64,000 bases of DNA from Bacteroidota bacterium. GTDB taxonomy: Bacteria; Bacteroidota; Bacteroidia; Flavobacteriales; Flavobacteriaceae. Numbering within the stretch: position 1 is the stretch's first letter; each line of letters begins with the position of its first letter. The notes below the pieces were generated by a model. That model was not told the DNA's origin. It searched no databases and saw nothing but the letters and a program-made list of their open reading frames with translations. The stretch is from the NCBI GenBank assembly GCA_024279425.1, contig JAJRRO010000017.1:1-64000 (forward strand), read 5' to 3'. The position numbers and the translations under genes are program-made. Of the stretch, positions 922 through 15,617 are shown in pieces.

Positions 922-3900
922 TCATAGCTTTTCCTCCTTTTCACCAAAGGTCTTTAGATAAGCTCCCGGTACACCCTGCATAGATAGACCCTCAATAGCC
1001 ACTTGTATCTGTTCGGCATTGTCCGAATTATAGAACAAGAGCCTCGCATTCCCATTGTTATCTGTCCTAAAGGAAGGGTTCCAATAGAGAGTGGCACGAT
1101 AGTCGGGTAAACTGTGTCTATCCAACTTTATGCTATAGTTAGGGGAATAAAACTCCCTCTCTGTCGCATGCCCCGCAATGTCAAATTCTGGAGCGAGTAC
1201 AGGTTCACTTCCGCCGCCTAATTTGGTATAGACCAAGAAGACACCGTTGGCACCCCTTGAACCCCAAATGGCAGCAGCAGGCCCTTTCAGAATCTCTACC
1301 CTTTCCACATTGGAGAGGTCCATCGTGGCGATTTGGAGTGGCACTGGCCCTGGGGTTATACTTCCTACAAACCCAACTTTTTGTGGGGCACCTTTACTGA
1401 TAGGAACACCATTTAGCACCCATAAAGGAGTGCCACGGCGGCGTATACTCACCCTAAATCTAGGAAAGGACCCATAGACCATTACACTTGCGAACCTCCT
1501 GATATAATCTACTAGTGTTATACTAGTTGCACGAAGACCCTTTGTGTAGAGGGTCGCATCCGGGGTTTGCCCAAGGGAGGAAGGCCTTGAGGGCTCTATC
1601 TTTTTCTCAATTATTTTTGTCACAACGACCTCTTCCAACTCGGTAGCGTTCTGAGAATCATATATAAGACGCATATTTTTTCGTGTTGCCGAAAAATCGG
1701 AATATTCCTTAACTGCTTCTGTATCCTTGACTGTAGGCATACTTTTGAAATGAGACAAAGGCACTGTAATTTTGTTGGTATCCAAGACCACTTTTACATT
1801 TAGGGTTTTTTTTACTGAACTAATCGCATTGAACACGATTCGGGTGGTACCGTTGAAATTAAAATCGGGTATTATGAATTTTCCATCCCGCTCCGTTTTT
1901 GTGGAGAACATACCCACAATGTCCCCTGATTTGGCAATTACGTTAAGATCTACATTTTTCATACGTTTATCAAACCCGCCTCTGGCCTGTCCCGATATGG
2001 TGAGCCCTTTTGCGAAGTCGAATTCCTTAGCAGGGAGGTTGCCTTCATGAATCTCCTGCCATGGGAACTTACGCCAGCCATGGGTCAGCATTACCAAATC
2101 CAGTGCATGTAGAGTCAATCTATGTTGATCTTTAAAAAGAAGCCCTGGATTGCTTATATGCCCTTTGATATCGGATTGTAATAAAAGGTGGGTCAAGATA
2201 TTCCCTGAATCAGGGTTTTTTACAACTTGACCTTCGTCGGTCACGGCCAGGGAAAGTTCAGTCGAAATGGGCTGTCCATAAGTATCGGTAACATTAATAT
2301 CGACCGCAATCTCATTTCTATTCGATATTTTTTCTGGGCTGATTCTTGCATTTATTACCAGCTCTTGTTGGTTGTTGATAAAAACGGCTCTTTCACACCA
2401 AGGGTTTTTGTCCTGATCAAAGAGGGTAAGGACCAGTACCCCACTTGGAATCCCATTTTTTGGAATCTCAAAACTAAGAGTTTCCTGATTTTTGAATTCG
2501 AACTCGCCCTGATAATACTTTTTATTATTTGAATGCCCAATGATATAGAAGGGTCTCTTCCTTAAGTGCTCCGTTGCCTGTATTTTTATCTTGATGTTTT
2601 TTAGGCCGGTATTATTTATGGTCATGGCGTACCCTTGCCCCATAATTTTAGGAAGCGGATATTCCGAACCATCGTTCAAGATGGCGGAATAGGCTTCACC
2701 CAATTTGGGTTGGAGGTAGAAAAAACCACTCCCTCTTGTTATTGTACCCAGATGAACTACGGGTTTCCCCCGCGAATCCTTGACATAGCCCCGGATTTTT
2801 CTGTCAAGACCATCACTTCCTATGGCTTTAAAGGCTACCTGCCCCATAAGGCCTGCCACGGCATGTCCTCCCTCGGGGAAGAACTGCAGGTCGATTGTGT
2901 CCGAAATATTCTGAGTAGGAAGGGGCATATCCGTTGCCCCGATTACCTTTACCATTTTTGTGAAAAAGAAATTATCGTCAAAGTTCCGCATCCAATTGGT
3001 ATAGGCCCGTAACTGATAATTCCCTGAAAAGAGGTTTTTGGGAAGCACTATGGAACCAATGGCCTTGCCATCAAAGAGTCCGTGTGTCTGAGAAACCAAG
3101 ATTTTATTGTTCGGGCCAATAAGATCAACATGTAGGACCTTACTGGCCAATGAAAATTGGTGACGCTCCCCTAGAACGGTATACGCTTTATACCATAGAT
3201 TTTCCCCAGGGGAGAACAGGTCCCTATCTGTATGCAGATATACCTTTTCTACTGGATTGTGATAATTGTACTTAGCAACATTGGAATCCAATTCTCTTAA
3301 AAAAGGATCACTTTCATTATCGGATTGCATAATGACCAACTGGTTTTTGCTGTTCAGGAAAATAGAACCAAATGCCTCATTTTTTTCAAAGGACTCAATG
3401 ACCTCTTCCTCGACGGGAGTACGTTTTACAATGGGATTGTCTTCCCAGAACTTCTGATTATACCCAATTTCATCAAGCTTTTGCCAGTCGTTTTTATTTT
3501 TTCTGAATTGCCGCCCCAATTTTTTTCTTGTGGTAGGGGTATAGTACTCAAAAAAAGTAAGGTTGGAGGTGGAAGAGGTATGGGACTCAAAGTCGTCATT
3601 CTTGTAATAATCGAATTCCTGTTCGATCTTGACATAGTCGATGACCGATTTGAGCACGCTATCCTGTTTATAGGCAATTTCATAGGAAATGGAATAGTCT
3701 TTCCATGAAGTGTTTTTTTCCGTAAGCTTTACCAATTTCAGATTGTCATGGGTTATGTTCCCGACAATTTTCAGGATATCATGGCTGGTCGTATTGACAT
3801 ACATCTCTGCGTCGAAAATTTTCCTTTGAAGATTTTTCTTGGGCTTGAACCAGAGCACCGCGATTTCATCATCCCCAGATGCAATATGTTCCACGACCTT

Positions 3901-4857
3901 AATATCATAAAAGGATTCAAAATTATGATGTAGGGGAAAAATAATATCATGGACAGCTGGTTGCAATGGGGTCAACAAACGGGATAGCAGCGTATAGTTT
4001 ATATTGTGGGCACCCCCGGGCTTCAAGGCGTACCGGCCTTCCAAAATTTCCCAATCCCATGGTTCCCTTGAAGTATAGTGAATATCATAGATAATCTCGG
4101 AAAACTCGGAATAGGCATCGCCGTTCTTTGATTTCTGCCTGTAAAAGGCTTTGGCATGTTTACGCCTGTATGAATTATGATCGGCCTTTTTAAACACTTT
4201 TCTAGCCAGTTCAAGGCCATATCTGCCCCTTTTGGAGTCCACGACCACCACCTCATCAAGAATATTGGTCAAGGGCACAAGTTCGATTATCAAATCCGAA
4301 GTCTCGGAAACCTCCAATTGCTGTTTCTCATAGTTGAGATGTGAAAAGACAAGTTTGGCGGGCAATGCGTCCACATTTATGACGAATCCCCCCAATTCAT
4401 TGCTTGCAGTGCCCGTGAACGATGATTCTACGGCTATATTGCAATAGGGTATGGGTTCGCCAGTGGCATTATCAATGACAATGCCACTGATTTGGGCTTC
4501 TTGATTTTTTTTGATGATAATCTGTTTCCCTATTATTTCATAGACCACGTCATTGTCTTCAAAAAGTTGGTCCAAAATTACAGGAACGGATTTCCGGATT
4601 ATCTTGATAGTGACCTTGCGGTCAAGATTTATTCCATCATTTTTATAGAAGAATGTAAATTTGGTCTTATCCTCTATTTCATTGAACACTTCCAATAAAG
4701 TAACCTCATTAAGGTTAAGGCTTATTTTTACATTTGGGGAATAACCATAATTTGCTTTTGCCATAAAAGCACCCATAAGCAGAAAAAGTAAGATGAATTT
4801 CATTTTCAGTTCAGATCTTCGTGCAATTTTGTCGGAATAAACCATTGCTTTTTTCAT
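922..4857 (-). CDS. STN-CarboxypepD_reg-MG2-plug domain protein (FecR-linked)
   Basis: The protein has 1311 residues from the MKKAMVYSDK start at 4857; a start 12 codons upstream is possible, but the paralog begins at the same MKKAMVY. Visible parts are an export segment (about 20-36), a STN domain (40-115), a carboxypeptidase-regulatory beta domain (121-205), a macroglobulin MG2-like domain near 540-640 (YLHTDRDLFSPGE), and a TonB-receptor plug-like domain near 1100-1240 (LEEVVVTK, LNGVPISKG, VERVEILKGPAAAIWGSRGA). There is no 600-residue beta-barrel after the plug, so it is not a complete TonB-dependent transporter. It follows the fecR gene on the same strand. The likely role is a surface or periplasmic partner of an outer-membrane complex controlled by the sigma/FecR pair; the substrate is unknown. 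Confidence 0.85.
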   Translation of the reverse strand: MKKAMVYSDKIARRSELKMKFILLFLLMGAFMAKANYGYSPNVKISLNLNEVTLLEVFNEIEDKTKFTFFYKNDGINLDRKVTIKIIRKSVPVILDQLFEDNDVVYEIIGKQIIIKKNQEAQISGIVIDNATGEPIPYCNIAVESSFTGTASNELGGFVINVDALPAKLVFSHLNYEKQQLEVSETSDLIIELVPLTNILDEVVVVDSKRGRYGLELARKVFKKADHNSYRRKHAKAFYRQKSKNGDAYSEFSEIIYDIHYTSREPWDWEILEGRYALKPGGAHNINYTLLSRLLTPLQPAVHDIIFPLHHNFESFYDIKVVEHIASGDDEIAVLWFKPKKNLQRKIFDAEMYVNTTSHDILKIVGNITHDNLKLVKLTEKNTSWKDYSISYEIAYKQDSVLKSVIDYVKIEQEFDYYKNDDFESHTSSTSNLTFFEYYTPTTRKKLGRQFRKNKNDWQKLDEIGYNQKFWEDNPIVKRTPVEEEVIESFEKNEAFGSIFLNSKNQLVIMQSDNESDPFLRELDSNVAKYNYHNPVEKVYLHTDRDLFSPGENLWYKAYTVLGERHQFSLASKVLHVDLIGPNNKILVSQTHGLFDGKAIGSIVLPKNLFSGNYQLRAYTNWMRNFDDNFFFTKMVKVIGATDMPLPTQNISDTIDLQFFPEGGHAVAGLMGQVAFKAIGSDGLDRKIRGYVKDSRGKPVVHLGTITRGSGFFYLQPKLGEAYSAILNDGSEYPLPKIMGQGYAMTINNTGLKNIKIKIQATEHLRKRPFYIIGHSNNKKYYQGEFEFKNQETLSFEIPKNGIPSGVLVLTLFDQDKNPWCERAVFINNQQELVINARISPEKISNRNEIAVDINVTDTYGQPISTELSLAVTDEGQVVKNPDSGNILTHLLLQSDIKGHISNPGLLFKDQHRLTLHALDLVMLTHGWRKFPWQEIHEGNLPAKEFDFAKGLTISGQARGGFDKRMKNVDLNVIAKSGDIVGMFSTKTERDGKFIIPDFNFNGTTRIVFNAISSVKKTLNVKVVLDTNKITVPLSHFKSMPTVKDTEAVKEYSDFSATRKNMRLIYDSQNATELEEVVVTKIIEKKIEPSRPSSLGQTPDATLYTKGLRATSITLVDYIRRFASVMVYGSFPRFRVSIRRRGTPLWVLNGVPISKGAPQKVGFVGSITPGPVPLQIATMDLSNVERVEILKGPAAAIWGSRGANGVFLVYTKLGGGSEPVLAPEFDIAGHATEREFYSPNYSIKLDRHSLPDYRATLYWNPSFRTDNNGNARLLFYNSDNAEQIQVAIEGLSMQGVPGAYLKTFGEKEEKL

Positions 4858-4933
4858 GCTCTTATCATTTTCAAATAACTCTAATCGACCCAAAACATGG
4901 CCTATTACTTTTATATATTCAAGGTCATTGTTT

Positions 4934-6085
4934 TTATGCCCCTGCCTTGATTATTATTTTATCGGTTTCCACATGATATTCAAAATGGGTAGTACTTTTA
5001 AATGTATCCAAAACCTGATTTAAGGTTTCAGTGGTAAATGTTCCCGTATACCTCATGTCGTCAAGTTCTGGGGACCTGTTTACAATGCGAATGTCAAAAT
5101 GCCGTTCCAGTTCTTTAATAATATCCCCAAAGCGGTCATTTACAAAATAAAGTTTGTCATTTGACCAGGCAATATGTTTTTCGGTATGCACCTCACGAAC
5201 GACAAACCCGTCTTTTTGGGCTGTAACTTGTTGACCAGGCTTTATAAGTAGATAATCTTGCTCATCAAAAGTCTTTGAAGGATCATAGACCGCAATACTC
5301 CCTTCGGTCAGCACTGCTGTAGGGTTATCTTCATTTCGGTAGTTTGACACGTTGAATTTTGTTCCAAAAACCCGCACGTTCATCTGCTCGGTATGCACAA
5401 TGAACGGTTGATTGGGGTTTTCTTCAACCTTAAAATAAGCTTCCCCTTCTAAAAATACGTTTCTGTTGTCCAAACCAGCAAACGATTGGGGGTATCTTAA
5501 CTCGCTACCAGCATTGAGTAAAATAGAACTGCCATCAGCAAGCCTTAATTCAAAGCGCTTCCCAAAAGGAACTTTTAAGCGGTCATAGGCCAATTTCGGA
5601 TGGGTTTTACCGGATGGTTCATATACGAGTTTCCCGAATTCTTGCTCTGCCACTTTTTCCCCAAGGGTGTTCGTAATCGATTTGCGGGTGTTTTCATCCA
5701 AAACCTCAAAAGTCCCATCTTCAAATTCCAAGGTTACCGGGGAGGCAATTTCCGTAATTGAATCGGGTAGGTCGGGATTGTTCCTTTTTACAAGGGAATA
5801 GATTCCTATTGACAGCACCACCACTACAATCGCGACCGCTGCATATTTATGGAGGTTCCTGAAAATCTTGCGGATGGGGGTATTATTGGCTTTAGAAAGA
5901 CCAAGAGCCTTTTGATAGGCCTCCTCCACATCAATGGAAGTATAAGAAAAATCCAAAATTTGGTTAGCTTGGACCGCATTCTTAAAATATTCCTGGTTCT
6001 TTGGGAGCCGCAACCAATCTTGTAATGCTTTAAGTTCTTCCTTTGAAAGTGTATCTGTTAGGAATTTGATTACCAGTTGTTTCAA
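4934..6085 (-). CDS. FecR-family anti-sigma factor
   Basis: The 383-residue protein has a cytoplasmic N-terminal helix region (about 1-78), a single membrane span at about 81-99 (AVAIVVVVLSIGIYSLV), a periplasmic FecR domain at about 170-270 (VPFGKRFELRLADGSSILLNAGS, GEAYFKVEENPNQPFIV) and a C-terminal DUF4974-like domain ending in KIIIKAGA. Proteins of this family hold an ECF sigma factor inactive and relay a signal from an outer-membrane partner. The partner sigma gene is divergent, 131 bp away, and the STN/plug genes lie downstream on the same strand. The only plausible initiation codon in frame near the N-terminus is TTG at 6085, giving MKQLVIKFLTD, typical of the family. Confidence 0.92.
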   Translation of the reverse strand: MKQLVIKFLTDTLSKEELKALQDWLRLPKNQEYFKNAVQANQILDFSYTSIDVEEAYQKALGLSKANNTPIRKIFRNLHKYAAVAIVVVVLSIGIYSLVKRNNPDLPDSITEIASPVTLEFEDGTFEVLDENTRKSITNTLGEKVAEQEFGKLVYEPSGKTHPKLAYDRLKVPFGKRFELRLADGSSILLNAGSELRYPQSFAGLDNRNVFLEGEAYFKVEENPNQPFIVHTEQMNVRVFGTKFNVSNYRNEDNPTAVLTEGSIAVYDPSKTFDEQDYLLIKPGQQVTAQKDGFVVREVHTEKHIAWSNDKLYFVNDRFGDIIKELERHFDIRIVNRSPELDDMRYTGTFTTETLNQVLDTFKSTTHFEYHVETDKIIIKAGA

Positions 6086-6216
6086 ATTATTGGATTTTAG
6101 CGATTATCTTTTCTATGTGACGCAAAAAAGAAGAGATACCCTTAGTTCATCTGGATATTTTTTTGATCTTTATGTGGTACAATATTTGGTGCTCTTGTGC
6201 CGACCGACCAAAGTAA

Positions 6217-6780
6217 ATGAACGAGAAGACTTTATATGACCAAATAAAGCAAGGCAATGCCCAGGCATTGAAAAGACTTTTTCACCTGCATTACAAGCCG
6301 TTATGCACTTATGTAGTTCAATTTACGAAATCTATGCCCGAGGCGGAAGATATAGTCCAAGGCATTTTTGTTAGACTTTGGGCAAGTCGTGAGACCCTTA
6401 CCAATGTTGCTTCTCCTAAGGCTTATTTATATCGCTCGGCCCATAATGCCTATATTGATAAATTTCGAAAAAGCAAAAAGGAGAGCACATTGTTGGAAAC
6501 CCTTAAGTATGAAGCATTATCCAGCCAATTGGAAGAAGACGATACCTTGCTACAGCAGAGAATAGCAAAAACAAAGAACCTAATAGACGGTTTACCCAAA
6601 CGTTGCAAGGAAATAGTGCTGTTAAGCAAGCAAGAAGGTTATAAAAACAGGGAAATCGCGGAAAAACTGGGAATATCTATTAAGACCGTGGAGGCTCAAT
6701 TAGGTGTTGCCTTTAAAAAAATACGAGAGGGTTTTAAAGATGATAAATTTTTGTTTTTCGTGCTTTTAATGGGCTTTTAA
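6217..6780 (+). CDS. ECF RNA polymerase sigma factor (sigma-70 family)
   Basis: The 187-residue protein has a region 2 (LFHLHYKPLCTYVVQF, EAEDIVQGIFVRLW, about 20-55) and a region 4 helix-turn-helix (LPKRCKEIVLLSKQEGYKNREIAEKLGIS, about 127-160; KTVEAQLGVAFKKIR). This is the organisation of the Bacteroidota group that pairs with FecR. It is transcribed away from fecR, so the 131 bp between them must contain both promoters. A near-consensus AATATTTG at 6181-6188, with TTTG at 6162, may be its promoter, although the 15 bp spacing is shorter than usual. It probably transcribes the fecR-receptor operon. The last residues are hydrophobic (FLFFVLLMGF), which is slightly odd for a cytosolic protein. 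Confidence 0.93.
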   Translation: MNEKTLYDQIKQGNAQALKRLFHLHYKPLCTYVVQFTKSMPEAEDIVQGIFVRLWASRETLTNVASPKAYLYRSAHNAYIDKFRKSKKESTLLETLKYEALSSQLEEDDTLLQQRIAKTKNLIDGLPKRCKEIVLLSKQEGYKNREIAEKLGISIKTVEAQLGVAFKKIREGFKDDKFLFFVLLMGF

Positions 6781-7142
6781 ATCAACTTACATAACAATTT
6801 TTAGAGGTCAGTAGTTAGGTGCATATTGTCCCATAAAACGTTCTTTTAAGGGACAATATCTGAAATTCATTGGTATACTTAAACCCACCTTTAACTAGAC
6901 TTTCCGAAAACCACAATTAGTTTACTTTCAAGGGTCGTTTAATTAAACTAATACTATTTCTTCATTAGAGTAATCAGAAGTTCGCTTATTATTCACAACT
7001 TCATTATTCTAGCATATTTTTATATATTTGAAAGTAGACTAGAGTAGCATAGATGTTTTTAATGATTATGGTCTTTGCCAAACAATTGTCTCCTAGCCTA
7101 AGAAGTAGACCTTAAACTTAGAAACCTGTAAAAATTTAAAAG
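6781..7142. other. Intergenic stretch with repeat copy A, no gene seen
   Basis: These 362 bp between the sigma factor and the CBM9-like gene show no convincing reading frame. They contain a 10-bp inverted repeat (ATATTGTCCC at 6823-6832 and GGGACAATAT at 6850-6859) followed by copy A of the dispersed repeat. The remainder is AT-rich. Confidence 0.6.
6823..6949 (+). repeat. Dispersed intergenic repeat, copy A (with hairpin)
   Basis: This is the longest copy of a repeat found four times between 6.8 and 13.0 kb, always in the same orientation. It begins with a perfect 10-bp inverted repeat with a 17-nt loop, then GAAATTCATTGGTATACTTA, ACCCACC, GACTTTCC, CAATTAGTTTACTT and GGTCGTTTA. Copies C and D share different parts of it, so this copy shows the full order. 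It has no coding capacity and could be the remnant or end of a mobile element, or a REP/MITE-like element. Confidence 0.65.
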
Positions 7143-7946
7143 ATGGCCAAGAAAGCAGATTATAAAGCTCGCAAAATAAATGAACCTATTACCATAGACG
7201 GGAAGGTTGACAAACCAATATGGCAAAATGCTAATTGGAGCAAACGGTTTGTAGATATGGCTTCGGGTGATTTGGGCATGTATAACACACAGTCTGCCAT
7301 TATTTGGAATAACAGCCATTTGTACATCGCCTTTAGGGCAGAAGAACCCTTCTTGAATGCACAGCTGACCGAACGCGACAGCATCATTTTTCAAGAGAAT
7401 GATTTGGAAGTTTTTATTGATGGGGGAGATTGTTATTATGAACTTGAGGTCAACGCCGCCAATACCATCTATGAAGTATTTTTTATTTGGAAGGATGCTT
7501 ATCTAAAGGGCAGTAAATTTGATATCCCACAGTTTGACGTGCACCAAAAAGAGGCCTACACCTTTGGTGGGGATTACGACCGCACTGGGGCATCGTTTTG
7601 GAAAGGTACCCACCCTCGCGGAATTCGGTGGGCCTTTACCGATTTTGATATGGAAGGCCTTGAAACTGCAGTTAAACTCGATGGTACCTTAAATGATAAT
7701 AGTGATATAGATAAGGGTTGGAGTCTTGAAATTGGAATTCCTTGGGAGGGCCTAAAATTATTAGGCGACGGCAGAACCATTCCACCCACAAATGGTGATA
7801 TATGGAGTATGTTTCTGGGAAGGTTTCAGAAATTGGTATTAAGTGGGAAAGAAGTGCAACCGCACCCAGCTATGGCATTGAATAGCCATGGTATTTATGA
7901 CACCCATATGCCCTCAAAATGGAGTAAGATTGAATTTATAGAATAA
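7143..7946 (+). CDS. Carbohydrate-binding family 9-like protein
   Basis: The 267-residue protein matches the CBM9-like fold of Bacteroidota: it begins YKARKINEPITIDGKVDKPI-WQNANW, continues with SAIIWNNSHLYIAFRAEEP and NDLEVFIDGGDCYYELEVN, and ends with a strand around WSLEIGIPWEGLKLL. Such domains bind sugars, often at reducing ends, and usually sit on exported proteins. This one has no signal peptide or lipobox and consists only of the domain, so it may be cytoplasmic or its true N-terminus may differ. Neighbours on both sides are separated from it by the dispersed repeat, so no operon is evident. Its ligand is unknown. Confidence 0.8.
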   Translation: MAKKADYKARKINEPITIDGKVDKPIWQNANWSKRFVDMASGDLGMYNTQSAIIWNNSHLYIAFRAEEPFLNAQLTERDSIIFQENDLEVFIDGGDCYYELEVNAANTIYEVFFIWKDAYLKGSKFDIPQFDVHQKEAYTFGGDYDRTGASFWKGTHPRGIRWAFTDFDMEGLETAVKLDGTLNDNSDIDKGWSLEIGIPWEGLKLLGDGRTIPPTNGDIWSMFLGRFQKLVLSGKEVQPHPAMALNSHGIYDTHMPSKWSKIEFIE

Positions 7947-7969
7947 CCCATTTACCTTTAATTAAAATT

Positions 7970-8012
7970 GTATACTTAAACCCACGTTTAATTGGACTTT
8001 GCTCATAATGGG
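7970..8012 (+). repeat. Dispersed intergenic repeat, copy B (short)
   Basis: TGTATACTTAAACCCACG followed by TTTAATTGGACTTTGCTCAT aligns with the core of copies A, C and D. The part after GGACTTT has diverged. It lies 23 bp after the CBM9-like stop codon and before the cyclodeaminase-ImmA gene, in the same orientation as the other copies. Confidence 0.6.
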
Positions 8013-8094
8013 TCATAAGAACAGATAGTCAGAGAAGTGACCTGAAATTCAGGTTGTTCAACTTGAAAACACCAGTATGTTAAATCCTAGGGTG

Positions 8095-8102
8095 TATCTT
8101 TG
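8095..8102 (+). promoter_or_regulatory. Bacteroidota -7 box (TATCTTTG)
   Basis: TATCTTTG matches the TAnnTTTG element. It ends only 5 nt before the ATG at 8108, so transcription would begin at or within a few bases of the start codon and the message would be nearly leaderless. No good -33 TTTG is seen at the usual distance. Confidence 0.45.
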
Positions 8103-8107
8103 TACTC

Positions 8108-9502
8108 ATGGACGAAAAGTATTTGGATTATCCCACAAGGGAGCTTTTGAAAAAATTCGGAGCCGGTAGCCATAAACCTGGTTCCGGAAGTGCGGCAGCA
8201 CTAGGGGGGATGCTTTCGGCACAATTAATATTGACCGTTATCGACCGTACTCTTGATAAACCGCAATATGCGGGACGAAAGACAAGGCTTTTGGAAATCC
8301 AAAAGGTCATCAATGACCGGATCTATCCCGAGCTGGAAAATCTCTTTCAAAAGGACTCGGAACAATTTCATAAACATATGGTCTTTCGATTGGCCAAAAA
8401 AGACGAGAAAGACCCTATCCATAGAAAAGAACTGGGAGAAAAAGCACTTATGGAGCTTGCACCGGCAACCGAAATCCCGATTGAGATTGCGAAACATTGT
8501 CGGGAATTGGCTGGGTTTTCCCTGTTCATATTCGATAAGGCGTTCCATGCCGTAAGGGGAGATTCAGGTGTGGCCATGACACTGGCAGTGTCAGCAATCG
8601 GAGGATGCGTTGCCATTGGGGACCTGAACCTCTTGTCCTTTGGGTCGAATGCATGGACCATTGCTATTAGGAAAGAAATAAATGAATTAAGGGAGGTTTT
8701 CGAAGTACTGTCGTCAGATTCATCCAAAAGACTGGATTCACTCAAACGTGAGGTCGATCAACACCAGGAATACCACGAAGCTATCAATGCCATACTACAC
8801 GATGCACAGAATAAATCACGTATTGCAAGCAAGAATATTGAAGAGATAGCCAAGAGCCTTCAAAATACCTTATGGAAGTATCGTAAAAATGCCTGGAAAA
8901 AAAGAGTGCCGAAAGCCCCCTTGGAGGTTTTGAATCCAGAAAAGGCACTATCCGCTTTAGGATACTTCTATAATCTTCAAACCTCACTTGGCCAGCATAC
9001 CATTCAAGGCAGCCTTTTTGAGATTGCCGGGATAATTGACAAAGAGGAAAAAATAGTCTCCATTTCAGATCAATTTCCACCAGCAATCCGAAATTTTACT
9101 ACGGCACATGAATTGGGGCACGCCCTACTGCACAAGGATATGGTGCTCCACCGTGACCGGCCCAAAAATGGGACCTCATTAGTGGAACGAGATGCCAAGG
9201 AAAAACAAGCGGACAAGTTTGCATCTTACTTCTTAATGCCGGAGAATTTAATGAAATCGGCCTTCCAAGAAAGGTTTCTTGCGAACCATTTCGTCATAAA
9301 CGAAGAATCTGCTTTCGCTTTTAATGAAGCTAGTACCTCAAACCTTAGAAAGAAAAGTAAGGATTTACACGGACTAGCCAAAAAACTTGCAGGAGCAGAA
9401 TTTTATAACGGAAATCCATTTGTATCGTTGGCAGGCCTTTTTAGTGTTTCAATTGATGCCATGGCCATTCGATTGGAAGAATTGAAACTACTCGAATTTT
9501 AA
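8108..9502 (+). CDS. Fusion of cyclodeaminase/cyclohydrolase (FTCD_C-like) domain and ImmA/IrrE metallopeptidase
   Basis: The 464-residue protein joins two families. Residues about 1-210 resemble the formiminotransferase-cyclodeaminase C-terminal domain (helical; KPGSGSAAALGGMLSAQL at 23-40, GDSGVAMTLAVSAIGG at 151-166, NAW at 181-183), known from folate one-carbon enzymes. Residues about 190-265 form a charged, probably coiled-coil linker. Residues about 285-400 are an ImmA/IrrE zinc peptidase: HELGH at 334-338 and the downstream ligand motif EKQADKFASYFLMP at 365-378. ImmA proteases usually cleave a paired repressor, yet no XRE regulator is nearby. Substrate and role are unknown; a sensor-protease or a stress or defence role is possible. 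The gene stands alone between two copies of the dispersed repeat. Both domain assignments rest on clear motifs; the function is open. Confidence 0.82.
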   Translation: MDEKYLDYPTRELLKKFGAGSHKPGSGSAAALGGMLSAQLILTVIDRTLDKPQYAGRKTRLLEIQKVINDRIYPELENLFQKDSEQFHKHMVFRLAKKDEKDPIHRKELGEKALMELAPATEIPIEIAKHCRELAGFSLFIFDKAFHAVRGDSGVAMTLAVSAIGGCVAIGDLNLLSFGSNAWTIAIRKEINELREVFEVLSSDSSKRLDSLKREVDQHQEYHEAINAILHDAQNKSRIASKNIEEIAKSLQNTLWKYRKNAWKKRVPKAPLEVLNPEKALSALGYFYNLQTSLGQHTIQGSLFEIAGIIDKEEKIVSISDQFPPAIRNFTTAHELGHALLHKDMVLHRDRPKNGTSLVERDAKEKQADKFASYFLMPENLMKSAFQERFLANHFVINEESAFAFNEASTSNLRKKSKDLHGLAKKLAGAEFYNGNPFVSLAGLFSVSIDAMAIRLEELKLLEF

Positions 9503-9548
9503 CTTTCTAAATAGTAAGTTGTGCACACTTTAATTTGCACATTTAATT

Positions 9549-9629
9549 GGTCTACTTAATCCCACCCATAATTGAACTTTCCAAAAAGCCCAATTAGTTT
9601 ACTTATAAAGGTCGTTTATATACACTCAC
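9549..9629 (+). repeat. Dispersed intergenic repeat, copy C
   Basis: GGTCTACTTAATCCCACCC, ATAATTGAACTTTCC, CAATTAGTTTACTT and AAAGGTCGTTTA follow the same order as copy A, with substitutions throughout. It is followed by TTGTCCCATAAAAGG near 9631, which resembles the hairpin arm of copy A placed on the other side. It lies between the cyclodeaminase-ImmA gene and the converging response-regulator gene. Confidence 0.62.
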
Positions 9630-9724
9630 CTTGTCCCATAAAAGGTGAAATAACGAGACAACTAAAAGAGATCAAGAATGGGACACTCTGGAAAAATATT
9701 TTGTGCTTTCTGAATATTGCCCCG

Positions 9725-9740
9725 TAAAACGGCCGTTTTA
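9725..9740. other. Perfect 16-bp palindrome
   Basis: TAAAACGGCCGTTTTA reads identically on both strands. It lies 15 bp beyond the stop of the response regulator, in the convergent spacer. Neither strand has a T-tract directly after it, so a simple intrinsic terminator is unlikely; a protein-binding site or a repeat-derived cruciform are alternatives. Confidence 0.5.
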
Positions 9741-9755
9741 TTGGACTAGAAAAAT

Positions 9756-10448
9756 CTATTCACTGCGAAAGAGTTGTTTTAAGTTATGCCTGTAGGTTTG
9801 ACCAATAGGCACTAAGTGCTCTCCAATCCTTATTCGATTTCCTTCTATCATCTTTATTTTATTGGTAGCAATGATAAACGATTTATGTACTCTTAAAAAA
9901 TCTGAAGCGGGTAACAACTCTTCCAAAGAGGAGATTTTTTCATGACTAATTATCATTTCTTTAGCTAAAAATACCTTCGTATAATTCCCATATGCTTCAA
10001 TAAATAGAATATCGTCAGTATGTATTTGGTGCGTTTTTTTATCCCCTTTAAGGAAAAAACTACTCTTCTTTTTTTCAGGAGAAGGGCTTAAAGTTGGGTT
10101 TTGATTATCCATAACCTTGTTCATTGCTTTTAAAAAACGTTCAAATGAAAAAGGTTTTAACAAGTAATCAGAAACATTCAGTTCATATCCTTCCAATGCA
10201 AATTCTTTATGTGCCGAAGTCACGATTACTTTTGGCGATTGTTGAATCGTTTTTAATAGATCAAATCCAGAGAGTTTGGGCATATTGATATCTAGAAAAA
10301 TTAAATCCACAGCCTGATTGTTCAACAGCTGCATAGCTTCAAACACATCATAGCAGTTTCCTATCTTTTTGAGGTACGATAGGTTTTCGCAATACCCTTC
10401 TATAATTCGATGCGCAATCGGTTCATCATCGATGATACAATATTTCAT
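9756..10448 (-). CDS. LytTR-family response regulator
   Basis: The 230-residue protein has an N-terminal receiver domain with IIDDEP (residues 5-10), the phospho-acceptor Asp in LIFLDINMP (about 53), Thr in VTSAH and Lys in LLKPF, and a C-terminal LytTR DNA-binding domain (ILFIEAYGNYTKVFL, SFIIATNKI, YRHNLKQLF; about 130-228). Its ATG overlaps the TGA of the sensor kinase by the ATGA arrangement, so the two are translated from one message and form a cognate pair. Targets are unknown. The nearest other gene is the alpha/beta hydrolase upstream on the opposite strand. Confidence 0.93.
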   Translation of the reverse strand: MKYCIIDDEPIAHRIIEGYCENLSYLKKIGNCYDVFEAMQLLNNQAVDLIFLDINMPKLSGFDLLKTIQQSPKVIVTSAHKEFALEGYELNVSDYLLKPFSFERFLKAMNKVMDNQNPTLSPSPEKKKSSFFLKGDKKTHQIHTDDILFIEAYGNYTKVFLAKEMIISHEKISSLEELLPASDFLRVHKSFIIATNKIKMIEGNRIRIGEHLVPIGQTYRHNLKQLFRSE

Positions 10449-11560
10449 AAGATCTCAAGATTTAGCCGGACTTTATAGATAGATTCTTTTACTTCCTCAA
10501 TCAATTCATGTTTTTTAGGATATAAATACTCTAATCTTTTTTTCAAATTTTGTAAACCAATGCCATTATTGAGATTAGATGCTGATATATCAAAACTATT
10601 TTCAATCGTAAAAAAGAGCTGCTTTCCTTGAGATTGCATTCGAAGATGAATAAAAGCGCTCTCACTCATTTTTTCTACACCGTGCTTAAAAGCATTTTCT
10701 AATAAAATAATAAATAGCAACGGGGCCACTTTTAAACCTTCTTGAACATCATGGATGAACAGAATTTCCACTTTTTTTTGATAGCGGATTCTATGTAGTT
10801 CAATGTAATTTTCGAGATAGCTGATTTCATCCTTTAGTGGTACTAAATCTTCTTTTCCCTCGTAGATAGTATATCGCATCATATCCGACAATTTTAAGAC
10901 TACTTCTGGAGCTTTATCTGATTTCTCCACTACTAGGCCATAAAGATTATTCAACGTATTAAAGAAGAAATGGGGATTGATTTGACTTTTCAGTAAAGCT
11001 AATTCTGCCTTTGCTTTATCTGCTTGTAAAGTCTTGAGCCAACGCCATTGTTCATAAACCCACAAAGCAGTAAAAACTGGAATCGGAATAAACATAAAAT
11101 TCCTCAAAATCATGCGATGATTTTCTGCTTGATCAGGTGTCATATTAAAAAAGAAAAAATTATAGGCTATAACTGATCCATACACAGAAAGAATAGCTAC
11201 CCTATATTTTCTGAAAAATTCGGGTAAAACAATGTAAGCTATTCCCAACCAGAATAGAATCAAAAGCGGAATGGTAATAGGATTATCCCAAATGCCCGTA
11301 TAATGTGGTATAACAAGGTGCACAACGAGGAAAGCAAGTACTGCCAATACCTTATAAACGCGAAACTTATGGATTAAAAAAGAAAGGACTATCCAACAAA
11401 AAATAAAACTGAGGACACTTATAAAGATGAAAAGTGGTGTAGCGGCATCAGCATGATTACTAATAATCAAGCCAATAATAACAAGCACTACAGCTAGGAA
11501 AATGGTAATGATTCCTCCTTTGATTAAAGCCGTGTAATATTTTTGAAAAAAACTGTTCAT
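10445..11560 (-). CDS. LytS-type sensor histidine kinase
   Basis: The 371-residue membrane kinase has an N-terminal half of several hydrophobic spans (about 12-165). This is followed by a His_kinase domain with the phospho-acceptor in QINPHFFFNTLNNL (His near 193) and a degenerate HATPase with the N-box LLENAFKHG (near 285) and the late glycine motif NGIGLQNLKKRL. There is no recognisable extracellular sensor domain, so the signal is probably perceived by the membrane part. It precedes, and overlaps by 4 nt, the LytTR regulator. The pair is typical of Bacteroidota. Confidence 0.92.
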   Translation of the reverse strand: MNSFFQKYYTALIKGGIITIFLAVVLVIIGLIISNHADAATPLFIFISVLSFIFCWIVLSFLIHKFRVYKVLAVLAFLVVHLVIPHYTGIWDNPITIPLLILFWLGIAYIVLPEFFRKYRVAILSVYGSVIAYNFFFFNMTPDQAENHRMILRNFMFIPIPVFTALWVYEQWRWLKTLQADKAKAELALLKSQINPHFFFNTLNNLYGLVVEKSDKAPEVVLKLSDMMRYTIYEGKEDLVPLKDEISYLENYIELHRIRYQKKVEILFIHDVQEGLKVAPLLFIILLENAFKHGVEKMSESAFIHLRMQSQGKQLFFTIENSFDISASNLNNGIGLQNLKKRLEYLYPKKHELIEEVKESIYKVRLNLEIL

Positions 11561-11734
11561 AGCTCAAAAATAGGATTCTTACTATAGACTTTCCATCTTT
11601 TTGACCAACGCTATCGATTTTGGGTTAAACATCATATTTTTTGGGTCCAATTGTATTCGACCAAGATTAATAGGTATGTGTGCTATTTTTAATGTGATTC
11701 ATCAAAATAATTTCAAGGTGCCTGTAAATGAATT

Positions 11735-11742
11735 TATGTTTG
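11735..11742 (+). promoter_or_regulatory. Bacteroidota -7 box before the hydrolase gene
   Basis: TATGTTTG matches TAnnTTTG. Transcription from it would begin near 11748, after the ATG at 11744, which favours the ATG at 11771 as the true start of the hydrolase. The -33 element is poor. Confidence 0.4.
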
Positions 11743-11770
11743 GATGGAATTAACTAAACGCCGAATTATA

Positions 11771-12811
11771 ATGAGAATCATCTTAAAGGTCTTAAAGTGG
11801 ATTGGCCTGTCGATCGCATCGCTGCTGTTGCTGATTATTATGGCTGGCTTATGCCTACGTATGTTTGGACCTGAACCACATGAACCTTTAGGTAAACTCG
11901 TTGATATTGGGGATTTCAAACTTCATATAAATAGTACTGGAGAAAAAAATGAGAAGCCAACTCTTATAATTGAGGGAGGTAGTGGTATGGCGAGTGAATA
12001 CTACCATTGGTTGAGTGAAGGTCTCAAGGATAGTATGAGAGTTGTCCGTTACGACCGAGCTGGAATCGGTTATAGCGATGCAAGTAATACTACACGCGAC
12101 CCAGAGACAATTGCCCGTGAGTTACACACACTATTGGAAAAAGCTGGAGAATTACCCCCGTACATCATGGTTGGTCATTCGCTTGGAGGACCTTATATCC
12201 GCGTATTTACTGAACTTTACCCAAATGAAGTGGTCGGTATGTTTCTATTAGATTCCACGCATCCCGACCGAGTTGCAAGAATACCATCCATACCTAAGAA
12301 ATCATCTTTGAAGTCTAAATCAATAGTTTGGATGTATAACTTTCAAGGCGTTTTAGGTGATCTCGGTATTATGATGCTTTATGATAAGTTCACGGGGCCT
12401 ATACTACAAAGAGAAATGGAAGGGTTACCTGATGAAATCAACAATCGTACAATAGACTTTTTGAATGACGGGAAATATATTCGAGCCATTGGAAAAGAAA
12501 TCGAACAATACCATACCACATTAGAAAGGGCGGGTAAAACAAATGACTTTGGCTCCTTACCACTTAGAGTATTTACCGATGCTATTGGAGAAATTCCAGA
12601 AGAAGTTTACAAAGAGTATCTTGAAAGAGGCATAGACCTTAGGAAGACGCAAATTAAAAGTATGAAAATGCAAGAAGAACTTATCAACCTATCAACAAAC
12701 AGCAAGCTAACTCTAATTGAAGGAAATCATATCAGCATTTTTACAAAAAAGGAAAATGCAGATATTATTTGTAAAGAAATCATTCAACTATTAGGAGAAT
12801 TGGAAGACTGA
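11771..12811 (+). CDS. Membrane-anchored alpha/beta hydrolase
   Basis: From the ATG at 11771 the protein has 346 residues; an ATG 27 nt upstream is in frame but lies too close to the promoter motif. An N-terminal span (about 10-32) anchors or exports the protein. The catalytic core shows an oxyanion segment (IIEGGSGM), YDRAGIGYSD, the nucleophile elbow GHSLGG (Ser near 137) and a late His in EGNHISIF. It is a serine hydrolase or esterase of the alpha/beta fold; the substrate cannot be deduced. It stands alone, divergent from the two-component operon, so co-regulation is possible but not shown. Confidence 0.85.
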   Translation: MRIILKVLKWIGLSIASLLLLIIMAGLCLRMFGPEPHEPLGKLVDIGDFKLHINSTGEKNEKPTLIIEGGSGMASEYYHWLSEGLKDSMRVVRYDRAGIGYSDASNTTRDPETIARELHTLLEKAGELPPYIMVGHSLGGPYIRVFTELYPNEVVGMFLLDSTHPDRVARIPSIPKKSSLKSKSIVWMYNFQGVLGDLGIMMLYDKFTGPILQREMEGLPDEINNRTIDFLNDGKYIRAIGKEIEQYHTTLERAGKTNDFGSLPLRVFTDAIGEIPEEVYKEYLERGIDLRKTQIKSMKMQEELINLSTNSKLTLIEGNHISIFTKKENADIICKEIIQLLGELED

Positions 12812-12927
12812 TCGGTAGAATTTTAATAGAAATTATATTTATCTATTACATAGAGTAAATAGATAACTAATGTAACCATCTGCCTAATGAAAAACTCTAA
12901 TCTAGTTTCATAACGAGGAACGTATAT

Positions 12928-12990
12928 GGGACAATATTTGAAATTCATTGGTATACTTAAACCCACCCATAATTGAACTTTCAAAAAGTT
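12928..12990 (+). repeat. Dispersed intergenic repeat, copy D
   Basis: GGGACAATATTTGAAATTCA, TTGGTATACTTAAACCCACC and CATAATTGAACTTTC match copy A from its right hairpin arm into the core, nearly base for base. The similarity fades after AAAAAGTTCA. It lies after the hydrolase gene, in the same orientation as the other copies. Confidence 0.65.
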
Positions 12991-13051
12991 CATATATGTT
13001 TTGCGTTTAGGATAAAACCTTTAAAGGTTTAATTCATAGGGTTGGCAATAA

Positions 13052-13084
13052 CCCTACCCTAGTAGTGTATGGTAGGGCTTTTTA
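13052..13084 (+). terminator. Hairpin with T-tract, possible terminator
   Basis: CCCTACC at 13052-13058 pairs with GGTAGGG at 13071-13077, followed by CTTTTTA. It is placed to end transcription from the hydrolase side (plus strand). Confidence 0.5.
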
Positions 13085-13175
13085 GGGTAGAATGAGAGTT
13101 TTTGTTTTTATACTTTATTAAATTAACTGTAATTCAGATAGTTATAATAATTTATATGGTTTGTAAAGCGGGTTA

Positions 13176-13215
13176 TTGTTAGGGTGGTAAGGGTGGTAAT
13201 AGCACACCCTAACAA
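13176..13215. repeat. 11-bp inverted repeat with internal GGGTGG units
   Basis: TTGTTAGGGTG (13176-13186) is the exact reverse complement of CACCCTAACAA (13205-13215). The loop contains another AGGGTGGTAA unit and a further ACCCTAA follows. It lies 28 bp past the end of the unknown gene of the integrated element; it could act as a terminator stem, or as a recombinase or accessory-protein site near the element end. Confidence 0.5.
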
Positions 13216-13243
13216 CCCTAATTGTAACTCTAATGGTATTTCT

Positions 13244-14038
13244 TTAGTCTTTTTTACTGAAAACATATTCTAACAAGTATTGATCCATTTCTTCTTCCGT
13301 AGGCATTGGTAAGCTTGTATCTGGTATTTGCGATAGGGGTAAGGTATTATTAGTTTTGGTTTTGATGGAATTGTTATTTTCAATTTTTGGAGCATAATTA
13401 AAATCGAATTCTTCAAATAGGAATTCATCGTTCAATGCCAATAGGATTTTTAAATCACCCTTGAATTGTATGATTTCCTCTAGGATTGGAATTTCGCTGA
13501 TCAACTCATTATTGAAATGTTTCGAATTTCCCATTAAAAATTGATCCAACCCCTTTGGATATTCCTGAATGGCTCTAATTTTTAAAACATCCTCTCTTAT
13601 TGAATATAATTCCAATTTGGAAGCATTTTTTACTTTTGCAATACCAGTTGCATTTTCGTACATTCTTACTATATCCAAATTTGGGGATTGTATACTATTT
13701 GCGATTCTCAGGTAATGGAGTCGGCCAATTTTCTTTGCTTCCAAATCTTCCATAGCAAAGACGAGGTCATTGAACGAATGGAAAAAATCAATTAATAGGT
13801 GCTCTATATGTTCTTGGTATTTAGAGGTAATGTACTCATAGTAATCATTCAACAATTCCTTGATTGGTTCTCTCACTATTTTGAAATTCACTGGGTCTAA
13901 CAGGTTGACAGGGGTATTGGTTGGTAAATTCAAAACCTTTGACGAGGTATACAGGTTTTTTGAAAGGAACAAGGATATTTTATCATCAGGGGATAATGTA
14001 CTAAGATTTTCTTTTTTTAAATATCCAAAATAATTCAT
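13244..14038 (-). CDS. Hypothetical protein linked to the recombinase
   Basis: The 264-residue protein has no family that I recognise. It is acidic-to-neutral, largely helical in appearance, without signal peptide or membrane span, and has a low-complexity Asn/Thr-rich stretch at about 220-235 before an acidic tail (TEEEMDQYLLEYVF). The start MNYFGYLKKE at 14038 lies 7 nt after the stop of the frame-restored recombinase, so the two are very likely co-transcribed. A longer in-frame ATG at 14110 would overlap the recombinase. It is probably part of the same integrated element; its role is unknown. Confidence 0.65.
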   Translation of the reverse strand: MNYFGYLKKENLSTLSPDDKISLFLSKNLYTSSKVLNLPTNTPVNLLDPVNFKIVREPIKELLNDYYEYITSKYQEHIEHLLIDFFHSFNDLVFAMEDLEAKKIGRLHYLRIANSIQSPNLDIVRMYENATGIAKVKNASKLELYSIREDVLKIRAIQEYPKGLDQFLMGNSKHFNNELISEIPILEEIIQFKGDLKILLALNDEFLFEEFDFNYAPKIENNNSIKTKTNNTLPLSQIPDTSLPMPTEEEMDQYLLEYVFSKKD

Positions 14039-14045
14039 AGCTCGT

Positions 14046-15382
14046 TCAGTTTTTATTATCTGATGAAGGTTGAAGGAACTCTGAATAATCAGATGGGAGC
14101 TCGGCATCAATATCCCTTAGGTATTTTTCCAAAGCGGCTAAAGTGGTATGTCCGGTAATTCCCATTAGTTTGCTCTTTGTCTCATTTGGTGATAGCTCCT
14201 TGCACATTTCCCTATACAATTTGGTTATGTACGTATGTCTATAACTATACAGTCCATAATCTTTTCCAAGTTTAAAATGGTCCTTGACTCTTTTAAACCT
14301 TTTAGAAAAGTAATTTCTTTTATCCCTTTCGGGAATATCCCAAATTCCGCCAATTTCATATGGGGTGAAAAGATAATGTTCGGGTTCAAAATTGGAAAAT
14401 TCCGGTAGTAAATCGATTAATATCTCGGGTATGATTTTAATTTTAACTTTTTTATTCTTGGCCTTGATATATTTTTTTTGTCTGATACATCAATATCCTT
14501 GATTTTTAAACGGCAGACCTCTATTGGCCTTAAAAAATTAAGGGAAAGAAACTGAACAAAAAATAGGAGTAAAGGATCATTCTCCTTCATATATATCTCT
14601 AGTTTTGATTCTTGTTCAGGCGTGAAGGTTTTATTTCTTTCTGGTTTAGTCGATAGGACATTTGTTTTAAGGATAAAATTGTCTTCAATAATCTCATTGT
14701 CCTCCAATGTGGTGAAAATTGAACTTAGACTGGTCCGGGCGTTGTTGCGGGTCCTGGCCGATGTCCTTTCCAGTACAGCATTCAGATATTGAACCACGGT
14801 TTTCTTTTTGATCGTCCTAATATTCTTGATTTCATTCTGGTCCAGCCATTTTTGAAATTGTCGAACAGGACTTACGTACCCTGAATAAGAGTTCGGGCTA
14901 AGTGTTTGCTTCTTTATTTTTAGTCCAAAATCGAATGCTTCTTGGACGGTCATGAATTTTTCTTCTACAATAGAGGGTAGGGTCGAGGTGTGTATGGGTG
15001 GTTCTACTGAATTGGGAATCGGTTTTTCCTCTTTTAGTTCTTTTTTGACATGCTCTTTGGGTATCTCCGTAGATCCGGTCAACAATGATATATGTTCCGA
15101 ATTATCGGAATTCGGAATAAATCCATTTTCCAAATATTTTATAAGAGATCTTTTAATGATCTTCATGAATATCAAACGTTCCCTTTTGGTCTTGAAACGG
15201 TTTACCCCACCTTTGATGGGAGTTTGCCTTATCAGTTTATTCGATTCGGTATCCCTGTATGAAAAATAAACATACCAATCCTTCGAAAGAGCCTCCTTTT
15301 GTTGTTTACGGGACAGCTTTGACCAACCATTGATTTTGACACCTCCGGTATAGAATTTGGGCTCTGAATAGTTCAGTTTCAT
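14046..15382 (-). pseudogene. Tyrosine recombinase / phage integrase, interrupted by a -1 frameshift at an A8 run
   Basis: The first part reads from ATG 15382 (an ATG at 15439 is in frame but lies on the far side of a palindrome). It contains an arm-type N-terminal domain, a SAM-like core-binding domain (SYSGYVSPVRQFQKWLDQNEI) and the first catalytic Arg region (LRPIEVCRLKIKDIDV), then runs out of frame at 14417. One extra A in the run of eight A's at 14472-14479 restores a frame ending at 14046. That frame carries the rest of the catalytic domain: YSYRHTYITKLY, GITGHTTLAALEKYLRD, with the likely nucleophile Tyr in KYLRD. So the gene is either inactivated, misassembled in a homopolymer, or expressed through slippage. 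It lies directly downstream of the tRNA and its terminator, as tRNA-targeted integrases often do. Confidence 0.85.
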
Positions 15383-15388
15383 GTTCAA

Positions 15389-15412
15389 ACCGTATACGTT
15401 ATCGTATACGGT
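15389..15412. promoter_or_regulatory. 10-bp perfect inverted repeat, candidate operator of the recombinase gene
   Basis: ACCGTATACG at 15389-15398 and CGTATACGGT at 15403-15412 are separated by TTAT. The site lies 6 nt upstream of the probable recombinase ATG at 15382, which suits a repressor operator or a recombinase-binding site. Confidence 0.55.
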
Positions 15413-15439
15413 AGGTAAAAGTATGGAAATAAAAGACAT

Positions 15440-15470
15440 AAAAAAACGGTTTGTGCGTACACAAACCGTT
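15440..15470 (-). terminator. Rho-independent terminator of the tRNA gene
   Basis: On the minus strand AACGGTTTGTG (15470-15460) and CACAAACCGTT (15455-15445) form a perfect 11-bp stem with a TACG tetraloop, followed by T's. It begins 24 nt after the tRNA 3' end. Confidence 0.85.
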
Positions 15471-15493
15471 GATTTTGTTGGCCTTGACCTTTG

Positions 15494-15567
15494 TAGCGAG
15501 AGGGGGGCACGATCCCCCGACCTCCGGGTTATGAATCCGACGCTCTAACCAGCTGAGCTACCTCGCC
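15494..15567 (-). tRNA. tRNA-Met (anticodon CAT)
   Basis: A 74-nt cloverleaf: acceptor GGCGAGG/TCTCGCT, D-stem GCTC/GAGC, anticodon loop TTCATAA (anticodon CAT), variable AGGTC, T-stem GGGGG/CCCCC and discriminator A; CCA is not encoded. Two things are unusual. The T-loop is ATCGTGC rather than TTCGANN, so positions 54 and 58 are A and T instead of T and A. The anticodon stem (TCGGA/CCCGG) has an A-C mismatch next to the loop. The GG start and paired first base suggest an elongator Met tRNA (or Ile2 with modified CAT) rather than an initiator. Confidence 0.88.
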
Positions 15568-15586
15568 ATATCTATTAAAACGGCTG

Positions 15587-15617
15587 CAAATATAAAGTTT
15601 AATTTTCTGTTCATCAA
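15587..15617 (-). promoter_or_regulatory. Promoter of the tRNA-Met gene
   Basis: On the minus strand TATATTTG (15594-15587) matches the -7 element TAnnTTTG, with TTG at 15617-15615, about 20 bp upstream. The tRNA begins 20 nt after the -7 box. Confidence 0.62.

Follow-up and report, generated by a model that had tools for sequence, protein, structure and literature searches.

A recurrent Bacteroidota fusion of an FTCD_C-like domain with an M78 zinc protease, a possible one-polypeptide sensor-protease

A single gene in a Flavobacteriaceae genome joins an N-terminal FTCD_C-like domain to a C-terminal M78 zinc protease of the CapP/ImmA/IrrE kind. It lies in the window, the whole 64,000-nucleotide stretch of contig JAJRRO010000017.1 (assembly GCA_024279425.1) analysed here, and the same fusion recurs in a scattered set of Bacteroidota with invariant protease residues and an FTCD_C half that forms a clade of its own. 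With an 80% identical copy, it shares a stretch of DNA that is barely longer than the gene. The reading that we favour, although we place it somewhat short of an even chance, is that of a Bacteroidota accessory protein, encoded by one horizontally transferred gene and acting as a CapP/ImmA-like sensor-protease in phage or mobile-element conflict. Both halves belong to known families. Their combination and the FTCD_C clade may be undescribed, as no description of an FTCD-M78 fusion or of its clade was found in the open-licence literature searched.

The gene occupies positions 8108–9502 on the forward strand as one uninterrupted ORF with an ATG start, encoding 464 amino acids. Pfam places FTCD_C (PF04961) at residues 10–192 (positions 8135–8683; E = 1.1e-23, 84.4 bits vs a cutoff of 24.5) and Peptidase_M78 at residues 294–389 (8987–9274; E = 2.3e-12, 47.3 bits vs a cutoff of 22), both far over chance. 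The original prediction of an FTCD_C-like N-terminus joined to an ImmA/IrrE protease is borne out by these matches, and the motifs that it listed are in place. These are PGSGSAAALGG (residues 24–34), GDSGVA (151–156), HELGH (334–338; 9107–9121), and E365 (9200–9202) within EKQADKFASYFLMP; by analogy with the protease family, we take E365 to be the third zinc ligand. The two domains are connected by a charged helical linker (residues ~196–275; 8693–8932), which is the least conserved stretch of the protein. The C-terminal tail FVSLAGLFSVSIDAMAIRLEELKLLEF (9419–9499) is conserved in alignment A2 and, like the ends of many ImmA/IrrE proteins, presumably forms a small segment of helical or winged-HTH-like fold. 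A similar tail ends an M78 protein found in identical form on two viral contigs (L052, 5129–5830, and L053, 1–702). An AlphaFold model of the fusion from a five-row alignment reached a mean pLDDT of 44 and was left unused.

The same architecture was sought in other genomes, and nine fusions are known in all, including that of the window. They are found in the window's genome (G000), in L018 (G385), L019 (G382), L050 (G566), L051 (G477), L083 (G1187), L084 (G1226), and L129 (G1475), and in L008, an uncultured Flavobacteriaceae record from a contig scan that reached close relatives only. Five family labels hold fusions (f1, f18, f38, f79, and f94). Eight copies are intact and one (L051) is frameshifted inside the FTCD half, either in the genome itself or in its assembly; at none of the nine loci does a stop between the halves divide them into two genes. 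Identity to the window protein is 80% for L008, 48% for L018, 41–42% for L019, and 39% for L050, the four fusions aligned in full with it. Three further relatives of the same kind carry the FTCD-like domain only: L021 (G009), L020 (G381), in which two stops break the gene, and L085 (G1176). No M78 gene was found around them in the 18–19.5 kb fetched per locus.

The protein and alignment searches covered overlapping sets of 60, 397, 395, 395, 325, 146, 149, and 100 genomes, all from the window's phylum by kinship labels; other phyla were covered only via capped contig and viral scans and via plasmid and phage collections. The fusion is usually absent from near relatives, and its spread is patchy. 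In the window's genus it occurs in one of 12 genomes, the window's own. At E ≤ 1e-20, L051's genome alone matched among its 146 relatives, the 149 relatives of G1226 yielded G1226 itself, G1187, and the FTCD-only G1176, and the 100 relatives of G566 yielded two matches, both of which are fusions.

The FTCD-like half is related to the folate enzymes and stands apart from them. Sequence profiles match it over nearly its full length to solved FchA (7vg4, 1e-14) and rat FTCD cyclodeaminase (1tt9, 6e-5), which points to membership of the same domain family. A maximum-likelihood tree built from 35 FTCD_C domains, which include five of the nine fusions and two of the three stand-alone copies, unites these seven in one clade (100/100) and groups the 28 canonical rows apart from them (100/100). 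The root of this tree serves for drawing only, three branches are long (L013, L022, and L038), and L013 is only 46% filled. The canonical rows were picked by similarity to the fusion protein within the searched genomes and are therefore no random sample of FTCD_C. G26, N146, and N170 are present in all 28 canonical rows and are replaced in the clade by S, F/Y, and I (V in L085), respectively; S151, present in 25 of the 28, is G in the clade, and the clade residue at position 148 is A or S. By profile alignment read by eye, positions 146 and 170 are N and position 151 is S in both solved enzymes. The PGGGS loop and the GNxNSxSD motif of the sampled canonical domains are absent from the clade. 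In the window protein the loop reads PGSGS (residues 24–28; 8177–8191), where 28 of 28 canonical domains have PGGG, and RGDSGVA (150–156; 8555–8575) stands where most canonical rows have GNxNSxSDxGV. Other positions are held: H22, S26, R94, R150, and G151 are invariant in the clade at every covered position, D83 and N174 are kept, and D152 is kept except for E in L050. With the resulting signature, HxPGSGS … RGDS, more members of the clade should be readily recognised.

Since the clade is without residues kept by ordinary enzymes and shares H22, R94, and R150, its FTCD half is probably no normal folate enzyme, and the clade residues may describe a pocket with gained positive charge. The label “folate-type cyclodeaminase” given by the original prediction holds for ancestry; with a separate clade and altered positions common to all 28 canonical domains, it would not extend to a demonstrated activity. 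A PF04961 search of eight genomes, a set that leaves out G1187, G1226, G1176, and G1475, found the clade member to be the sole FTCD_C domain in six, each an intact match. In the remaining two, it returned two pieces of a broken copy only (G477) or nothing (G008).

The protease half retains HExxH and the equivalent of E365 in all nine fusions (eight by alignment and L129 by eye). Its best solved match is CapP (7t5t), at 1.4e-4 with the single sequence and 1.2e-6 with a profile, ahead of IrrE, to which similarity is weak (E = 0.002–0.006 by profile). The CapP similarity is itself weak and thus no proof of orthology. CapP acts together with CapH in the control of CBASS and other immune operons, and the defence-rich surroundings of several fusion copies add to the likeness. 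Unlike CapP, however, the fusion in the window has no adjoining CapH-like repressor, and no CBASS operon was recognised at the nine fusion loci. A CapH-CapP pair next to an immune operon is absent from the window, and none was recognised at the other loci, either by eye or among the 25 of 149 PADLOC families listed (a comparison made without L129). CapP is not known to carry an FTCD-like domain. ImmA of ICEBs1 and IrrE/PprI of Deinococcus are likewise HExxH + E proteases and act in mobile-element or stress switching. IrrE carries an added sensor-like domain, and relative to ImmA/IrrE the fusion has an FTCD-like N-terminal domain in place of GAF or HTH.

A phage-encoded origin was considered and rejected. 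Scans of viral contigs with short peptide patterns returned M78-type relatives or nothing, and a whole-protein tblastn search of 72,556 plasmid and 50,697 phage records found matches in the M78 half only, in six plasmid records and in three that belong to a single Leptospira phage. At five of the plasmid matches an ImmA/IrrE gene follows an HTH gene, and in two cases (H3 and H4) the pair adjoins a CBASS cyclase gene; the sixth (H2) has no annotated gene beneath it. The CapP-like company of the relatives rests on these six records. With the protease half alone, tblastn matched 65 plasmid records.

Comparison of the window gene with that of L008 shows both halves to be under purifying selection in this one gene pair. 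Overall dN is 0.116 and dS 0.854 (dN/dS ~0.14). The FTCD half gives 0.101 and 1.272 (~0.08, from a dS high enough to make the figure rough), the linker 0.192 and 0.671 (~0.29), and the protease half with tail 0.101 and 0.636 (~0.16).

A blastn search of window positions 6001–12000 against all of L008 returned a single match, 8047–9514 (80% identity), which comprises the gene, ~60 bp before it, and 12 bp after it. The fusion gene therefore appears to move as a single-gene unit, and its own promoter probably travels with it. The −7 promoter box of Bacteroidota is TAnnTTTG. A match to this box, TATCTTTG (8095–8102), begins 13 bp before the ATG in the window and L008 alike, a position that suggests a leaderless or near-leaderless transcript. 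The box also occurs upstream of the start in L050 (−11) and L083 (−32) and is absent within 90 bp upstream of the other six of the ten starts scanned, with ~0.05 occurrences expected per 90 bp. Short imperfect repeats with a AATTGGACT-like core lie on both sides of the fusion in the window (7978–7998, 9533–9553, 9558–9578, and 9727–9747); they were not taken to be attachment sites. No empty site was identified in the genus, where the upstream gene is without a full-length match in the other 11 genomes and the gene downstream of the fusion, a regulator of a large paralogous family, is unhelpful for such a comparison. Megablast of window positions 4000–15600 against plasmids gave no match. A tyrosine-integrase-like gene at 14420–15439 (−) has N-terminal SAM-like matches only and no catalytic-domain match; directly beside it lies tRNA-Met (15493–15567, −), and the two are probably the remnant of an integration site ~5 kb from the fusion.

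The fusion is in part associated with defence and mobile genes. Among the nine copies, three have defence systems nearby (L008, L050, and L083), two have TA- or Fic-type genes (L084 and L019), and two have a phage-type exonuclease or IS21 genes (L051 and L129), a tally to be read against small controls. The L008 fusion lies in a conjugative element with DUF5712, coupling-protein, and tra-like genes and adjoins a complete Lamassu system of LmuA (1.3e-142), LmuB (2.9e-219), and LmuC (3.2e-71). Type I restriction-modification genes, for the specificity and methylase subunits, lie with PrrC near the L050 fusion. At L083, a TrlF-family ATPase lies directly upstream on the same strand (579 bits vs a cutoff of 350) and an IS200 transposase downstream. 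MazF/PemK-like and Fic proteins are encoded near the L084 fusion, MazF scoring under its NCBIfam curated cutoff. L019 has a divergent HTH_17 gene (9523–9978, +) and then a gene for a PIN-domain protein (143 bits vs a cutoff of 170). L051 has a lambda-exonuclease-type gene and an HTH_3 gene (10426–10755, −), and L129 has an HTH_3 gene that runs towards the fusion in convergent orientation (9924–10181, −) and IS21-type IstB and rve genes ~2.5–4.7 kb on. Close to the fusion in L018 and in the window, no defence gene was recognised. The original prediction asked whether the architecture recurs in defence or integrative islands, and this holds for several copies in conjugative or defence settings, with nothing of the kind recognised close to these two. 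Lamassu, ABC-3C, type I RM/PrrC, and TrlF, the neighbours of L008, L020, L050, and L083, respectively, are each beside one copy only, and none of these systems has the fusion as a constant component.

No partner gene is conserved across the loci. As the original prediction stated, the window has no adjoining repressor partner, with no ORF of 60–150 amino acids within 1.5 kb of the fusion; the same is true of L008, L018, and L084, and the ORFs of this size at L050 and L083 include none recognised by eye as HTH. HTH genes stand beside three of the nine fusions (L019, L051, and L129), are of differing types, and could be considered as protease substrates.

In a rough comparison of the surroundings, 117 neighbour ORFs at 11 loci were set against 108 ORFs in 11 arbitrary stretches of DNA from ten of these genomes, with G385 used twice; the controls are without the L008 genome, and L129 is in neither the PADLOC nor the Pfam test. 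Neighbours matched 149 PADLOC families and controls 38, with models that overlap heavily. The 25 of the 38 control families listed are mainly of the UvrD-type helicase, and RTasHel, mad2, and mad3 each appear once or twice. In Pfam, the PemK/MazF toxin, Fic, TraM, and coupling-protein models are among those with two matching neighbours apiece, and the 25 of 139 Pfam families listed for the controls include no mobility or toxin family. NCBIfam MobC, TraM, and TraN models each have two matches among the 117 neighbours, which are taken to be in L008 and L021.

Among the stand-alone copies, L021 seems, by eye, to lie at the corresponding cargo position in a related conjugative element, whose DUF5712 gene also has a weak relaxase match. 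In L020 (8577–12788, +), the broken FTCD-like gene is followed by ABC-3C CTD9, MC5, and an AAA_23 ATPase, and MazF-like, WYL, and Fic genes lie upstream of the gene in L085. With no M78 gene in the fetched stretches, these copies indicate some use of the domain without a protease, so that its role is not always just that of an M78 sensor.

Because several copies lie among anti-virus or mobile genes, the fusion may be a sensor and a switch in one protein. In this reading, with its inferred role in phage or mobile-element conflict, the N-terminal domain descends from a methenyl-THF cyclohydrolase/cyclodeaminase; its pocket would have been remodelled and would bind a small molecule tied to infection or stress, such as a pterin, a folate, or a phosphorylated metabolite. 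Such binding, or a dimer formed by the FTCD half, would gate the C-terminal CapP/ImmA-type zinc protease, which would then cleave a regulator or effector that, in the window's case, would be encoded elsewhere. Against this sensor-protease reading stand the window copy and L018, with no recognised defence neighbour, the want of a conserved partner gene, and, as far as sole use in a sensor-protease is concerned, the stand-alone copies. More tentatively, the whole may be a hitherto undescribed immune module in which a mobile, cyclohydrolase-derived clade came to serve as a metabolite sensor or a metabolite-destroying enzyme in conflicts with phages or mobile elements, with the CapP-like protease as a built-in output. 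Where CapP and PprI respond to ssDNA, a protease with a one-carbon-metabolism domain would suggest that some bacterial switches read metabolite state instead. If true, a sensor-protease of this kind would connect defence directly and testably with folate or nucleotide metabolism.

Other explanations were also weighed. FchA and FTCD domains form oligomers, and the FTCD half could accordingly be an oligomerisation scaffold only, with ssDNA or DNA damage triggering the protease to cleave a repressor encoded elsewhere. This is a doubtful but serious alternative, as the top solved relative of the protease half, CapP, is reported to be an ssDNA-activated protease that cleaves its repressor CapH (PMC13373217), and PprI/IrrE, which cleaves DdrO, is likewise reported to be activated by ssDNA (PMC10904395). 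The likeness to CapP is weak, however, and a scaffold would need none of the residues that every covered member keeps (H22, PGSGS, R94, D83, and R150-G-D152-S, with one D152 changed to E). The retained D83, D152 (E in L050), and N174 would also suit an effector enzyme with a changed substrate, which destroys or modifies a folate, pterin, or other metabolite in infection and is controlled or matured by the protease. Copies that lack a protease, one in conjugative-element cargo (L021) and the other a broken gene next to ABC-3C genes (L020), fit the same idea, but N146, S151, and N170 of both solved enzymes are lost, and we regard it as unlikely.

Less likely still is a regulatory or toxin-antitoxin-like protein whose protease or tail works on a neighbouring DNA-binding protein and so controls its own or an adjacent gene. 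The HTH genes at L019 (divergent, followed by PIN) and at L051 and L129 (convergent) favour it, as do the tail, which resembles what we take to be the small HTH-like ends of ImmA/IrrE proteins, and a spr1629-type repressor/antitoxin model that touches the protease half at 46 bits (cutoff 335); yet these HTH genes are unlike in type and direction, and the small-ORF survey at the other six loci offers no HTH candidate. An ordinary one-carbon enzyme with a fortuitous protease fusion is highly improbable. The FTCD_C match over the Pfam cutoff and a score of 62.7 bits with the FchA equivalog model NF045657 speak for it, but the cutoff of that model is 275 bits, and the altered positions, the patchy spread, the invariant protease residues, and the defence or mobile neighbours of several copies all speak against a normal folate enzyme. 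That assembly or gene calling joined two genes has rarity alone in its favour and a negligible probability; such an artefact, or a chance join, is ruled out by the recurrence of the same join at nine loci, in genomes or records whose proteins, for the four aligned in full, range so widely in identity to that of the window.

Two of the gene surroundings contain further features. In the conjugative-element cargo of the genus mate L021 (7919–12369, −), closely spaced genes on one strand encode a GNAT-containing protein, an ASCH protein, the stand-alone FTCD-like protein, a 150-amino-acid protein, and an HNH protein; the 150-amino-acid protein is without a Pfam match and carries an RxxxxH motif that is HEPN-like by eye. 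In the window, positions 922–6780 contain ECF sigma factor and FecR-like genes (both by eye) and a SusC/RagA-like TonB-linked gene, which together resemble an ordinary outer-membrane uptake locus.
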